Virus record (IMG/VR): IMGVR_UViG_3300034071_001075
Span: 1 to 26,497 of that record
Reading direction: 5' to 3' (one strand)
DNA length: 26,497 nt
DNA from: a virus
In this document: positions 3,793 to 19,902 of the stretch, piece by piece
Position numbering within the stretch: position 1 is the first letter of the stretch
Layout: every line of letters starts with the position of its first letter
Translations under genes and position numbers: made by a program
Notes under the pieces: model-generated
What the model saw: the letters and a program-made list of their open reading frames with translations, nothing else
Databases searched by the model: none
What the model was told of the DNA's origin: nothing

Positions 3793-3795
3793 ATT

Positions 3796-3809
3796 GTAAC
3801 AAAAGTTAC
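3796..3809 (+). promoter_or_regulatory. NtcA-type binding site (GTA-N8-TAC)
   Basis: The sequence GTAACAAAAGTTAC matches the cyanobacterial NtcA consensus GTA-N8-TAC exactly, including the flanking T and A. It is a perfect inverted repeat with 7-base arms (TTGTAAC / GTTACAA, 3794-3811). NtcA is the host's 2-oxoglutarate-responsive nitrogen activator. The box centre lies about 50 bases before the start predicted from the TATAAT at 3841, farther than the classic -41.5 position, so activation geometry is uncertain. The alternative reading is a weak AT-rich terminator hairpin followed by TTTTT for the upstream gene. Confidence 0.55.
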
Positions 3810-3817
3810 AAAAGTTT

Positions 3818-3846
3818 TTGCATAACTATACTAACAGGTCTATAAT
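3818..3846 (+). promoter_or_regulatory. Sigma70-like promoter of the riboswitch unit
   Basis: TTGCAT at 3818-3823 and a perfect TATAAT at 3841-3846 are exactly 17 bases apart. Transcription would start near 3853, at the first base or two before the riboswitch P1 strand at 3854, which is where an aptamer leader should begin. The weak -35 is compatible with dependence on an activator at 3796-3809. Confidence 0.7.
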
Positions 3847-3853
3847 GACCTTA

Positions 3854-3950
3854 CGTTCATCTGTATTATCAGACGGAAGTAAGCCGACGCGGAACGGATC
3901 GTTCATTCGCTATTCGCAAATAGCGAACGCAAACGCCGACTGAAGGAACG
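3854..3950 (+). promoter_or_regulatory. Glutamine riboswitch (glnA / Downstream-peptide class)
   Basis: The leader reproduces the conserved core of the L-glutamine aptamer in order. P1 5' strand CGTTC (3854-3858) is followed by A, then the P2 hairpin TCTG / CAGA (3860-3863 with 3870-3873). The invariant junction CGGAAGTAAG is at 3874-3883, CTGAAG at 3940-3945, and the P1 3' strand GAACG at 3946-3950. The known aptamer has the same CGGAAGUAAG...CUGAAG core closed by a CGUU/AACG stem. The P3 arm is unusually long. Instead of one simple stem it holds two local hairpins: GAACG-GAT-CGTTC (3892-3904) and a 9-bp stem with CGCA loop (3906-3927). The ribosome-binding site AAGGAG (3969-3974) can pair with CTCTTT right after P1 (3951-3956), which suggests translational control. 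The class is known to precede short ORFs in cyanobacteria and cyanophages, as here. Confidence 0.87.
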
Positions 3951-3981
3951 CTCTTTAGCCTCAAAATTAAGGAGAAACCTA

Positions 3982-4140
3982 ATGTCACAAGTCACTTACA
4001 GGGGTTGTAAATACAACACTGAAGATGCAAAAAAAGAGTATGTATCTTGGTATAACAAAACACATGCTCCCGCTCATCCACAAAACGTATATCGTGGTGT
4101 AGCATACCGTCCTTGCAACAATCAGGAGGTAGCAAAATGA
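3982..4140 (+). CDS. DUF4278-like small protein under glutamine riboswitch control, 52 aa
   Basis: The ATG at 3982 follows AAGGAG (3969-3974). The translated protein begins MSQVTYRGCKYNTED and contains two YRG-x-x-Y units: YRGCKY near the N terminus and YRGVAYRP near the C terminus. This repeated YRG pattern, with a strand before each copy, is what I recognise from DUF4278, a small family found in cyanobacteria and cyanophages; its biochemical role is unknown. No membrane segment or catalytic motif is seen. It is the first gene after the riboswitch and lies in a discrete unit ending at the terminator at 4243-4271. A role in nitrogen or glutamine physiology is inferred only from that control region. 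The stop overlaps the next start (ATGA). Confidence 0.82.
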   Translation: MSQVTYRGCKYNTEDAKKEYVSWYNKTHAPAHPQNVYRGVAYRPCNNQEVAK

Positions 4141-4238
4141 ATACTTATTTCGTTCGTTACCTTAAGAAAAAAGCGAAGAAAGAGAATCTTCTTCGCATCG
4201 CACAACTGAATATGGCAAAGCAACCACAAGTTGCATAA
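4137..4238 (+). CDS. 33-aa basic peptide coupled to the DUF4278 gene
   Basis: The ATG at 4137 overlaps the DUF4278-like stop as ATGA and is preceded by a strong SD (CAGGAGG, about 4122-4128). The peptide MNTYFVRYLKKKAKKENLL then continues RIAQLNMAKQPQVA to a TAA at 4236-4238, just before the terminator. It would be an amphipathic helix with seven Lys and two Arg near the centre. The strong SD, coupling and position before the terminator argue for real translation. Such short basic peptides could bind a host protein or RNA, but that is speculative. Confidence 0.65.
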   Translation: MNTYFVRYLKKKAKKENLLRIAQLNMAKQPQVA

Positions 4239-4242
4239 CTCA

Positions 4243-4271
4243 GAGGGAGACTTGACTCTCCCTCTTTTTTT
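4243..4271 (+). terminator. Strong intrinsic terminator of the riboswitch unit
   Basis: A perfect 8-bp stem GAGGGAGA / TCTCCCTC (4243-4250 with 4257-4264) has the six-base loop CTTGAC and is followed directly by seven T. It closes the unit 5 bases after the 33-aa ORF stop. Confidence 0.92.
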
Positions 4272-4280
4272 ATGTAGAAT
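4252..4280 (+). promoter_or_regulatory. Sigma70-like promoter overlapping the terminator
   Basis: TTGACT (4252-4257, mostly in the terminator loop) and TAGAAT (4275-4280) are 17 bases apart. Each differs from consensus at one position. The predicted start, near 4287, is only about 13 bases before the ATG at 4300. The terminator and the next promoter therefore appear to share sequence. Confidence 0.5.
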
Positions 4281-4460: not shown

Positions 4461-4646
4461 ATGTATGAAACTTTAACGGAATTTGAAAGAGCACTTGCTA
4501 GATTTGGAGATAAAGTCCAGTATATTGTTGGACTTGAAATTAGCAATAAAATGAGTCCTGAAACTGCATATCAAGAAATCAAAGATATGATGAAAGAACT
4601 CAAAAAACTTCGTAAAATTGAAAAAGATACTTGGGAGAAAGAATGA
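4461..4646 (+). CDS. Small helical hypothetical protein, 61 aa
   Basis: The ATG at 4461 lies three bases after the preceding stop region. The protein begins MYETLTEFERALARFG and looks entirely alpha-helical. Its C-terminal helix is strongly charged (MMKELKKLRKIEKDTWEKE), which could form a short coiled coil. Its stop overlaps the thyX start (ATGA), so it is coupled to thyX, and the GGGAG inside its last codons serves as the thyX ribosome-binding site. Function is unknown. Confidence 0.68.
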   Translation: MYETLTEFERALARFGDKVQYIVGLEISNKMSPETAYQEIKDMMKELKKLRKIEKDTWEKE

Positions 4647-16620: not shown

Positions 16621-19600
16621 ATGGCAACTATAAATTCTAAAAAATTACTACCTTCTTCCAAAGCATTTTCTTCAAGATTGAAGAACAAGAAGATTTTAAT
16701 ACCTGTAAGTAATATTCGTGTAAAAAAGAATGCAAAAACATCATCTGAAGATTTAAAAGGGGGATCATCTTCTGGAATATCTTCGGATTCACTTTTAGGA
16801 ATAAAAAATATATTTTTAAAAATAAAAGATGTATTATTAAAAAGTTCAATCTTTCAAAAGAAAGAACAAGATAATAAAAGAAAAGGTCAAGAAAAAGAAG
16901 CAAGGAAGAAAAGAGAATCAAAATTAGAAAAGAAACCAACTAATAAAAATGTAGAATCTGGAATAGCATCTTTACCCAATTTAAGTTTTATCGATAGAAT
17001 TAAAAAGTTTTTATTTTGGACGATTTTAGGAAGATTTTTTTCAGATTTATTTCCAAAGTTAATTGAATTTTCTAAAATAATACTTCCAGTTGTCAATTTT
17101 ATAGCAAATTTTGCTGGAAATATTTTGAAAGGTGTAGTTGATTTTATTGAATGGGGATACATTGCATATGATAAAGTTAGAGATTTAACAAAACAAATTG
17201 GTGGTGAAAGCGCACAAAAAGTATTTGATGATTTTTCAAAGCACTTTAATACTTTTTTAAATCTTGCTTTGATTGCCGCAATGGCAGGATCTGGAATTGG
17301 TGGTGGCGATTCAGGAAAAAAACCAGGAAAACCAGGAAAACCTGGACCATATAGTGGAAGTGGGGGAAATAAACCAACAGCAGCAGATAAAGTTAGGAAT
17401 GCTAAAATTAGAGATATACAAAGAAAATATGGACCAAATGCAAGGAAGATATATGAAAATGCTTTAAATAATGGTAAGAGTTATACGCAAGCTGAAAAAG
17501 CAGTAGAAAGGGGATTTAAAAAAGGAGTTTCTATTAGACCAGGTGCCGATTCATTAGCAGCAAAAACAGCAAAAAGTGGATCTATATTTAACAGAGGTTT
17601 AGGAAAACTTCCTTCAAGACTTGCAACAAAAACTTTTGGTAAAGTAGGAGTTAAAATTGCTGGAAAAACTTTAGGTAGAATTCCAATTATTGGTGGATTA
17701 GTTAATTTCCTATTTGCTTTATGGTCTGGAGAAAAACCAGGAAGAGCAGCAGCAAAAGCAGTAGGTGCTACTATTGGATCTGCACTAGGAACATTTATTC
17801 CTATTCCTATTGCTGGAACAATACTTGGTGGTATTCTTGGAGATATTGTTGGTGGGGCATTGTATGATACTTTGGTAGCGGGAAATAATAAGAAAACTCA
17901 AACAAAAGCAAAAGGTGGAAATATTGGTAAAGTAAAAGTAAAACCTGGAGGAAATAAGAAGAGAACAATAACAATCGCACCAAAAAAACCGAAAAAAATA
18001 GAACCACAAAAAACATCTATTGGTAAAGATATTGGTGGAAAGCGAAAGATAGAAGAAATTTACGGTAAAATTGAATTAGGTAAAAAAAGTCCATTAAGAG
18101 CTTTAGTAAAAACTTCAAATGATTTGAAGCAAATGAAACCACTTAATGGACTACCCGCCACAATGTTTAGTGCGGGAGTTGATATGACTTTAGGGCAAAA
18201 ACCAAATAAAGATTTACCAAATCAAATCGGAAATGCTTTTGGGTCAATAGTCGAGTCATCTATAAATGCAGAATTGTCATCTCTATTTGGACAAATTACA
18301 AAAACATTAACATTAGCAGAAGGAGGATCTATTACTGCACCAAGAAAACTTGATGAAGGTGGAGTGAATAATATTGGTAAGAAAATTGGCAGCAAAATAG
18401 CATCTACTCTCTCTATAGCAATAAATTCTTCAGCAACTAAAATATTTAATAATTTAAATCATGAATTTAATCTTAGACAAAATGGAGATGGAGGTCCAGG
18501 TCCCGATTCTCCTCCTATTGAACCTGGAAATATAAAAGTTAGTTCAGATAGTCCAGATTTTTGGTTATTGACTACTGCTGCACTTTTTGAAAATGGAAAA
18601 CCTAAAGATGGATATCAAGGAGCTGCTGATGTCGCTCAGGCAATTTATAATAGAGTTTCTTTGCCTGGATGGCCTAAGAGTATTAGAGGAGTAATTCTTT
18701 CACCAGGACAATTTACTCCTGTTGGAAGATATGGAACACCTGCTGAATGGTCTAAAATTAATTCCAGAGAATCTGCTATAGCATTTGCCAAAAAATACAA
18801 AGGGTATTCTGGAAATATTGTAGATCAAATTGCAGCATCTTTATTGAATAGTTCTAAACAACAAAATGCAAGAACTTTCGTAGGACCAAGAGATAACTTT
18901 AGGTCTGATTCTTATGAAAAATCAAATGATCATTTAGATGATTCAACAGAAAAAAGTAGATATGGACATACTTTTGGATTTGAACCCAGAGGAGCAAATA
19001 TAGGAAAATTTAAGAAAGGAGAAATTACTGCAGCAGAAGTTAATAAGAGTGTAGTTAAGGGAAGTGTAGAGGATTTATTAACTCGTGATGGAAAACCTAC
19101 TACTGGATCTCTTTCTGTAGTTCTTCCATATGGAAGACCTACATTTACAAGTGGATTTAGAACTAACCATAGACCAGGACATAATGGTATAGATATAGGC
19201 GTTGATGCTAATTCTCCAGTGATAGCAATTCAAGATGGAAAGGTAATTGATATATACAAAAGTTTTGGTGATTGGGGTAATGCTGTAGTAGTCAAACACT
19301 CTGATGGATCACAATACATATATGGACATATTAATGAAAGTGTTTCTACAGGAGCACCTATTAAAAAAGGTCAAGTTATTGGTAAGGTAAAATATTGGCC
19401 TAAAGGTGCAGCAGGGGCAAAATATGATAATAACACACATTTACATTTAGAAAGAAAGGATTCGAGTGGACGATGGGTAAATCCTTCTCCATTTTTAATA
19501 TCAGCATATAATACAACTCAAGCATCTAAACCTACTTCAAATCCTCAAACCCAATCTAAAAATTTTGGAGTTAAGTATCAAAGTGGTCAGTTCCAAAAAC

Positions 19601-19902
19601 TTGGACCATTTGGAATAAATCAAAGTGTTAAAGTTACAGATAAAGATAATACTTATTTAAGAGAAATTTCATCATTTGGGTTAGGTAAAGGGAAAAAAGA
19701 AGGAGAAGTTAAAACAGCTGCTGATGGAAAAAAATATCAGTGGTTTGGAAATAAATGGGTAGAGTATAATTCATCTCTATCTTCATTAAACGCATCTTTA
19801 CCAGTTTCAAATTTAAGTCAATCTGTGGCGCAAATTGGCGATTATGCACCAGGAGATATTTTGATGCAAAGAGAAATAATAATTATTGATAGAACTGCAT
19901 GA
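16621..19902 (+). CDS. Large tail/hub protein with SleB-like hydrolase and M23 peptidase domains, 1093 aa
   Basis: The ATG follows the preceding stop by one base. A Lys/Glu-rich segment (residues 80-105) precedes SFIDRIKKFLFWTILGRF (about 122-139) and a hydrophobic stretch, in the same order as the upstream protein. Residues 210-225 and 350-420 are hydrophobic and Gly/Ala-rich, as in tape-measure proteins, with a short GKPGKPGKPG run near 232-241. Residues about 645-800 resemble SleB-type cell-wall hydrolases (AALFEN...AADVAQAIYNRV...VILSPGQFTPVG). Residues about 835-965 are a complete M23 endopeptidase: H854-N-G-I-D858, YGH (902) and H940-L-H942, the zinc and catalytic positions. The N-terminal half is likely structural (tape measure or hub) and the C-terminal half opens the cell wall at infection. 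Confidence 0.8.
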   Translation: MATINSKKLLPSSKAFSSRLKNKKILIPVSNIRVKKNAKTSSEDLKGGSSSGISSDSLLGIKNIFLKIKDVLLKSSIFQKKEQDNKRKGQEKEARKKRESKLEKKPTNKNVESGIASLPNLSFIDRIKKFLFWTILGRFFSDLFPKLIEFSKIILPVVNFIANFAGNILKGVVDFIEWGYIAYDKVRDLTKQIGGESAQKVFDDFSKHFNTFLNLALIAAMAGSGIGGGDSGKKPGKPGKPGPYSGSGGNKPTAADKVRNAKIRDIQRKYGPNARKIYENALNNGKSYTQAEKAVERGFKKGVSIRPGADSLAAKTAKSGSIFNRGLGKLPSRLATKTFGKVGVKIAGKTLGRIPIIGGLVNFLFALWSGEKPGRAAAKAVGATIGSALGTFIPIPIAGTILGGILGDIVGGALYDTLVAGNNKKTQTKAKGGNIGKVKVKPGGNKKRTITIAPKKPKKIEPQKTSIGKDIGGKRKIEEIYGKIELGKKSPLRALVKTSNDLKQMKPLNGLPATMFSAGVDMTLGQKPNKDLPNQIGNAFGSIVESSINAELSSLFGQITKTLTLAEGGSITAPRKLDEGGVNNIGKKIGSKIASTLSIAINSSATKIFNNLNHEFNLRQNGDGGPGPDSPPIEPGNIKVSSDSPDFWLLTTAALFENGKPKDGYQGAADVAQAIYNRVSLPGWPKSIRGVILSPGQFTPVGRYGTPAEWSKINSRESAIAFAKKYKGYSGNIVDQIAASLLNSSKQQNARTFVGPRDNFRSDSYEKSNDHLDDSTEKSRYGHTFGFEPRGANIGKFKKGEITAAEVNKSVVKGSVEDLLTRDGKPTTGSLSVVLPYGRPTFTSGFRTNHRPGHNGIDIGVDANSPVIAIQDGKVIDIYKSFGDWGNAVVVKHSDGSQYIYGHINESVSTGAPIKKGQVIGKVKYWPKGAAGAKYDNNTHLHLERKDSSGRWVNPSPFLISAYNTTQASKPTSNPQTQSKNFGVKYQSGQFQKLGPFGINQSVKVTDKDNTYLREISSFGLGKGKKEGEVKTAADGKKYQWFGNKWVEYNSSLSSLNASLPVSNLSQSVAQIGDYAPGDILMQREIIIIDRTA

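Follow-up and report, generated by a model that had tools for sequence, protein, structure and literature searches.

Results

Organization of the locus

The window, by which we mean the whole 26,497-nucleotide stretch of DNA that was analyzed, is a 26.5-kb virus record from a T4-like cyanophage, in which genes for AdoMet decarboxylase, ThyX and PhoH surround the regulatory unit laid out in Table 1. The preliminary description had read this unit as self-contained, with an NtcA-type palindrome, a 17-spaced promoter, a glutamine-type aptamer, a gene for a 52-aa DUF4278-like protein, a coupled 33-aa peptide and a terminator, and every one of these parts was found. The unit is less closed than proposed because the terminator hairpin holds a promoter-like TTGACT/TAGAAT pair, and the single aptamer core, while of glutamine type, belongs to two interlocked units and not to one. 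The gene order matches that of S-PM2 (speD, homologous element, td, phoH). Elsewhere in the window, a DUF7219 protein (E 1e-18) is encoded at 4461-4646, between the operon and ThyX, and a 1093-aa protein with Hydrolase_2 cell-wall hydrolase and M23 peptidase domains, probably a virion lysin, is encoded at 16621-19902.

Use of the 52-aa protein as query recovered 68 IMG/VR loci and the isolates S-PM2, DSL-LC03 and S-CRM01. The element itself matched 42 phage records (including P-SSM2, P-SSM4, P-HM1, S-SSM7 and S-CREM1) and the repeat-junction pattern occurred in at least 120 viral DNA stretches. The comparison set consists of 116 distinct elements with both repeats present, and L-numbers denote the loci fetched for relatives. 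That the nested form described below arose in cells was considered and set aside: a pattern scan of 84,980 bacterial and archaeal genomes, in which the pattern covers the GGAAGTA half of the elements only, gave 12 matches, about the chance number (approximately 9 by our own estimate), and none of them was cyanobacterial. Two of the fetched loci have further features. L071 (1-800 and 1741-2100) is a cyanophage-like contig with group I intron matches and an ORF judged by eye to be plastocyanin-like, close to the most divergent nested riboswitch. In L157 (1194-1242 and 1299-1496), a second, single glutamine aptamer adjoins a manA RNA about 0.5 kb from a nested element.

Table 1. Features of the regulatory unit, in positions of the window
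Feature	Position	Strand	Basis and remarks
NtcA-type palindrome GTAACAAAAGTTAC (GTAN8TAC)	3796..3809	+	Centre at about -50 from predicted start; box in 91/115 homologous upstreams
Promoter TTGCAT-17-TATAAT	3818..3846	+	TTGCAT 3818-3823, TATAAT 3841-3846; relatives share layout
Whole aptamer (predicted)	3854-3951	+	Covariation, covariance model
Outer P1 5' strand CGTTC	3854..3858	+	Partner 3946-3950; unguided RNAalifold, covariance model R1
P2a hairpin TCTGTATTATCAGA	3860..3873	+	4 pairs, two-sided changes in all; P2a ORF site in relatives
Outer core CGGAAGTA, E-loop strand	3874..3881	+	Linchpin G3876, partner C3951; covaries, 116/116; role from PMC6698751, PMC5393176
P3 5' strand AGCCGACG	3882..3889	+	Partner 3934-3941; covariation
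Inner P1 GAACG-GAT-CGTTC, capped, circularly permuted	3892..3904	+	Compensatory C-G flips in L059, L071
Inner linchpin G3897, partner C3930	within 3892..3904	+	Pairs in 114/116
P2b hairpin TTCGCTATTCGCAAATAGCGAA	3906..3927	+	4 pairs with two-sided changes; P2b ORF site in relatives
Inner core CGCAAA	3928..3933	+	Conservation across relatives
P3 3' strand CGCCGACT	3934..3941	+	Last P3 pair U-A 77, G-C 30, A-U 3 (111 elements)
J3/1 GAAG, outer P1 3' strand GAACG (3946-3950), linchpin C3951	3942..3951	+	Pair counts, covariance model
Predicted anti-SD CTCTTTAG (3951-3958) with SD stretch TTAAGGAG (3967-3974)	3951..3974	+	Folding only
52-aa DUF4278-like protein, YRG...YRG	3982..4140	+	phrog_5049, E 2.7e-11; homologous YRG protein at 109/112 elements
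33-aa basic peptide MNTYFVRYLKKKAKKENLLRIAQLNMAKQPQVA	4137..4238	+	ATGA overlap with upstream stop codon; family under purifying selection
Intrinsic terminator	4242..4271	+	Stem 4242-4265 plus T-tract; hairpin holds TTGACT 4252-4257

The NtcA-type box, the promoter and the terminator

NtcA sites are common in cyanophages (PMC3037559). Among 115 unique homologous upstreams, 91 carry GTAN8TAC, against a mean of 2.5 (maximum 7) in shuffled sequences and 1-8 for other spacings, and the palindrome keeps a set position upstream of the promoter, most commonly exactly 8 nt ahead of a TTGAC-like -35 element (47 cases). The usual activating position of NtcA is near -41.5. The box in the window is centred neither there nor at -28.5, the repressing position reported in the case of gifA (PMC6316151), and both directions of control fit its location. 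In the hosts, a shortage of nitrogen leads NtcA to repress the gif genes, and glutamine turns the riboswitch ON (PMC6316151). Given that the two host inputs agree, with nitrogen excess resulting in ON, the earlier proposal that a phage operon reading both would integrate opposite signals as a nitrogen logic gate was overstated.

The promoter-like pair in the terminator hairpin consists of the -35-like TTGACT (4252) and a TAGAAT 17 nt downstream that ends at 4280. The fetched loci yielded 240 distinct terminator hairpins. TTGAC is present in 67 of them, and in 63 of those cases a TAnnnT lies 15-19 nt downstream (for example in L074, L080, L092 and L099), so that the T-tract would serve as the promoter spacer.

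Pairing across two repeats

The element in the window contains two CGTTCA...GGAACG repeats, the first with the GGAAGTA core and lacking GAAG, and the second with GAAGGAACG present and the core CGCAAA instead of GGAAGTA. Each repeat could fold on itself, as in a tandem arrangement. In a nested arrangement, by contrast, an outer type-1 aptamer would take its first part from the 5' half of unit 1 and its second from the 3' half of unit 2, and its P3 would lead into an inner three-way junction that is circularly permuted. Comparison of the relatives shows the nested scheme to be the predicted fold. In the alignment and the pair counts, a P1-P2-P3 three-way junction with both the CGGAAGUA core and the GAAG joint was found for the outer junction only.

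The linchpin 23:60 is a contact in the glutamine-I crystal structure, in which glutamine touches neighbouring bases (PMC6698751, PMC5393176). Read as nested, the outer linchpin, in which the core of repeat 1 meets the base that follows repeat 2, is paired in all 116 elements (G-C in 53 and C-G in 63), and the inner linchpin, formed by the C of CGCAAA and the base after the GAACG of repeat 1, is paired in 114 of 116, where the C was fixed by the search pattern and the partner was free. Under the tandem reading, the corresponding bases form pairs in just 55% and 54% of the elements.

P3 covaries between the units and not within them. In addition to its last pair (Table 1), several P3 bases change together in L157 (AGTCA/TGACT), L071 (ATCGACG/CGCCGAT) and L210 (GACGACG/CGCCGTC), and two-sided changes were seen in five of the eight P3 pairs of alignment A1, the inner positions of P3 being two conserved mismatches that are mostly C.A and A.C. 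In L059 and L071, moreover, the inner hairpin reads CAACG/CGTTG, a change that disrupts the tandem P1 in each repeat and leaves the nested P1 intact. The outer P1 is invariant and thus offers no covariation of its own. RNAalifold without an imposed structure returned the outer P1 together with the inner P1, and mean pairing probabilities were 0.85 and 0.53 for the nested helices versus 0.03 and 0.01 for the tandem ones. The tandem model was rejected on the linchpin counts and the L059 and L071 flips.

By its predicted pairing, the inner junction is of the same topology as the outer one, entered via P3 rather than P1. It retains C1:G59, G2, C58, G22 and the linchpin, and its core is without the GUA of the E-loop.

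Covariance-model scoring

Rfam at gathering thresholds gave no match in the window because the RF01739 model has no room for a junction inserted in P3, and the lack of such a hit, put forward earlier as grounds for abandoning the riboswitch, would have led to the wrong conclusion. Under relaxed settings, RF01739 produced two side-by-side half-matches (3852-3900 and 3898-3954) of 32.5 and 33.1 bits, below the gathering score of 35 bits, and the element in the window is therefore classed as a variant and not as a plain member. The same model spans the entire element as one aptamer above the cut-off in L071 (45.4 bits) and L157 (40.2 bits), both of which have short P2 loops and a strong P3, and the element of L048, whose P3 is an ordinary hairpin and which precedes the same gene family, passes with 56.7 bits. 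A covariance model, R1, built from 31 relatives with the window excluded, gave the window a score of 100.2 bits (E 1.7e-23), which together with covariation that includes the ligand-site linchpin backs the assignment as a glutamine-type aptamer. Glutamine-II (RF01704) was tried and rejected for the window, with 17.7 bits versus a gathering score of 33 and covariation that favours nested three-way junctions, not a pseudoknot.

Protein genes inside the P2 loops of relatives

The P2 loops of the window copy are without an ORF. In 73 of the 116 elements, by contrast, ORFs lie in P2a (27), P2b (54) or both (8), leaving 43 with neither. Each of the 81 distinct loop proteins contains exactly two cysteines at a spacing of 31-39 residues, and the median dN/dS of 0.11-0.31 in frame versus 0.56-2.8 in shifted frames indicates that the loop ORFs are under purifying selection. 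AlphaFold predicted a confident helical hairpin (pLDDT 86) for the loop protein, and most of the best fold matches in a viral library were to cyanophage proteins that are themselves uncharacterised. Annotated loop genes include PHM1_179 and 180 of P-HM1 and 169.2 and 169.3 of P-SSM4; others are located at L001 3803-3958, in L057, at L213 716-919 and 949-1125 and at L215 700-1113, and some have signal-peptide-like starts.

The reading frames extend into the aptamer. Of the 54 P2b ORFs, 49 use the riboswitch core and P3 (ACGCAAAAGCCGACTGA) as their final codons, typically ...DAKAD-stop, and six P2a ORFs end GRK-stop, from CGCAAGTAA. Hairpin placement was compared between L177, L037 and L038 on one side and L002, the window and others on the other. 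Across the 116 elements a fixed hairpin, CTATTcgcaAATAG (TTCGCTATTCGCAAATAGCGAA in the window), lies in P2a in 13 and in P2b in 25 and never in both; it occurs 132 times inside these loops and 0 times outside; and a P2a-type ORF is located in P2b in L116, L151 and L167. The loop contents thus seem to be exchangeable cassettes.

The controlled genes

The next gene begins 28-41 nt past P1 and encodes a small YRG protein in 109 of 112 cases, 107 of them with two YRG motifs. The 52-aa protein in the window matched DUF4278 (PF14105) with 21.1 bits (E 4e-4), under the Pfam gathering score of 25.3, and hence is called DUF4278-like; its YRG...YRG pattern is common to relatives that reach 25.0 bits. 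Its structure model is of low confidence (pLDDT 63), and a PDB sequence search with the 52-aa protein and the 33-aa peptide returned nothing meaningful. The second gene is real as proposed, belonging to a family of basic peptides of 27-38 aa with a dN/dS of about 0.15, and a Pfam search of the 33-aa peptide gave no match. Because the basic peptide is fused after the YRG domain in L091 and L177 and before it in phrog_545, the YRG protein and the peptide probably act together.

Folding of the expression platform

In predicted folds, CTCTTTAG is able to pair with the SD stretch TTAAGGAG. Since C3951 also takes part in the outer linchpin, the anti-SD pairing and the linchpin may compete. Folding of the expression platform gave no consistent direction of control, with SD accessibility low either way (0.17 vs 0.12, P1 formed or absent). 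Translational ON control by glutamine is proposed from the host precedent.

Discussion

We consider it highly probable that the leader is a nested, domain-swapped type-1 (glnA) glutamine riboswitch. Comparison of the relatives shows a deeply conserved pairing scheme that precedes YRG/DUF4278-like genes, with an NtcA-type box ahead of the promoter. In this predicted fold the outer P3 would have no terminal loop and would run into a second junction with its own capped P1, P2 and linchpin pair. Glutamine would be bound by the outer junction, and the inner junction probably binds it now or did so formerly. Ligand binding would then change how accessible the start region of the 52-aa gene is, most likely turning the gene ON as in hosts, and NtcA would adjust transcription, so that the operon would follow the nitrogen status of the infected cell. 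In the weakest step, the 52-aa protein and the 33-aa basic peptide may act on host nitrogen metabolism, perhaps on glutamine synthetase.

The two junctions need not both be sensors. That glutamine is sensed by the outer aptamer only, with the inner junction a structural spacer in place of P3 and a relic of duplication, has close to an even chance. In its favour are single-aptamer relatives with a simple P3 that control the same genes (L048, L006 and L049) and the missing GUA of the inner E-loop. However, a mere spacer need not keep C1:G59, G2, C58, G22 and a linchpin paired in nearly every element, and glutamine-II binds glutamine without the glutamine-I E-loop (PMC6698751). The retention of C1:G59, G2, C58 and the linchpin therefore makes a second glutamine site in the inner junction possible. 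Pursuing that possibility, we tentatively picture a cooperative two-site glutamine sensor, in which two aptamers stand back to back via one shared P3 with the inner one permuted, the P2 loops are exchange sites for genes of small secreted or lumenal two-cysteine proteins, and, where such genes are present, the core would be both ligand site and codons, so that loop translation and glutamine binding would exclude each other.

As to the products, the preliminary description suggested that the 52-aa protein or the 33-aa peptide targets host nitrogen metabolism, which by analogy they may. IF17 of Synechocystis consists of DUF4278 and an IF7-like basic C-terminus with essential arginines; the C-terminus inhibits glutamine synthetase, and DUF4278 adds stability and is dispensable (PMC6316151). 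A split phage version of this inactivating factor, with the 52-aa protein as the DUF4278 part and the peptide as the basic helix part, is plausible in view of the fusions in both orders and of a regulatory logic that is the same as the host's (PMC6316151). We nevertheless hold it to be rather unlikely, the peptide having neither a Pfam match nor a PDB relative. The 52-aa protein ends past the YRG repeat, and the phage proteins are without an IF7-like C-terminus.

Given that CGTTC and GAACG are identical in both units, all four P1 strands are complementary and either pairing could form, and glutamine might choose between nested and tandem folds. Such a switch is improbable, since the computed probability of tandem pairing is only 0.01-0.03 and such pairing is lost through the flips seen in L059 and L071. 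Two ordinary, self-folding tandem aptamers with a steeper, pseudo-cooperative response, which the CGTTC...GAACG ends on each unit, the Rfam match to each half and a list of 157 pseudo-cooperative glutamine doublets (PMC9481103) would suggest, are very improbable in light of the linchpin and P1 pairing, the cross-unit P3, the divided GGAAGTA and GAAG and the lack of an expression platform between the units.

The nested reading bears on how glutamine riboswitches are counted. Doublets for glutamine have so far been entered as plain tandem switches of the pseudo-cooperative kind. In the large set compared here, covariation shows one interlocked fold instead, which potentially has two binding sites. 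Conserved protein genes in riboswitch loops, with the core doubling as codons, pose the question of competition between translation and ligand binding. The operon would further couple the expression of phage genes to the nitrogen status of the host, and since the element set includes the reference cyanophages P-SSM2, P-SSM4, P-HM1, S-PM2 and S-SSM7, infection systems already exist.

Comparison with known systems

An NtcA box, a glutamine riboswitch and DUF4278 have been described together for the host genes gifB and PMM1846 (PMC6316151), so that this combination, presented earlier as new, was already on record and the regulatory logic is inherited from the hosts. A literature search, incomplete on key papers, found no nested glutamine aptamer and no phage DUF4278 described; as far as the searched literature goes, what is new is the nested aptamer together with the genes in its loops. 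The phage operon shares all three ingredients and the gene family with gifB and PMM1846, yet it differs in the nested aptamer, the shorter YRG proteins, the separate gene for the basic peptide and the NtcA box at about -50.

Compared with glutamine-I (RF01739, 5DDP), the outer aptamer has the same P1, conserved A, P2, CG[G/C]AAGUA core, P3, GAAG, P1' and linchpin 23:60. Unlike glutamine-I, a whole second, permuted junction here replaces the P3 hairpin, and the P2 loops hold genes in phage relatives. Tandem glutamine riboswitches (PMC2864571, PMC9481103) likewise have two CGTTCA...GGAACG repeats before one gene, whereas the phage repeats are interlocked by cross-unit pairing. The glnA riboswitch annotated in cyanophage S-CREM1 is the same element (L207 887-979, 93.1 bits with the nested model), and in the parts of that paper available to us it appears as an Rfam match alone, structure and nesting being absent there (PMC9964418). 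For the loop genes, the nearest precedent is the metE B12 riboswitch of M. tuberculosis, in which an ORF translated within the aptamer changes the expression of the downstream gene (PMC11260477). That case concerns a short uORF in a single leader, whereas the phage relatives carry a large conserved family of two-cysteine proteins in their P2 loops.
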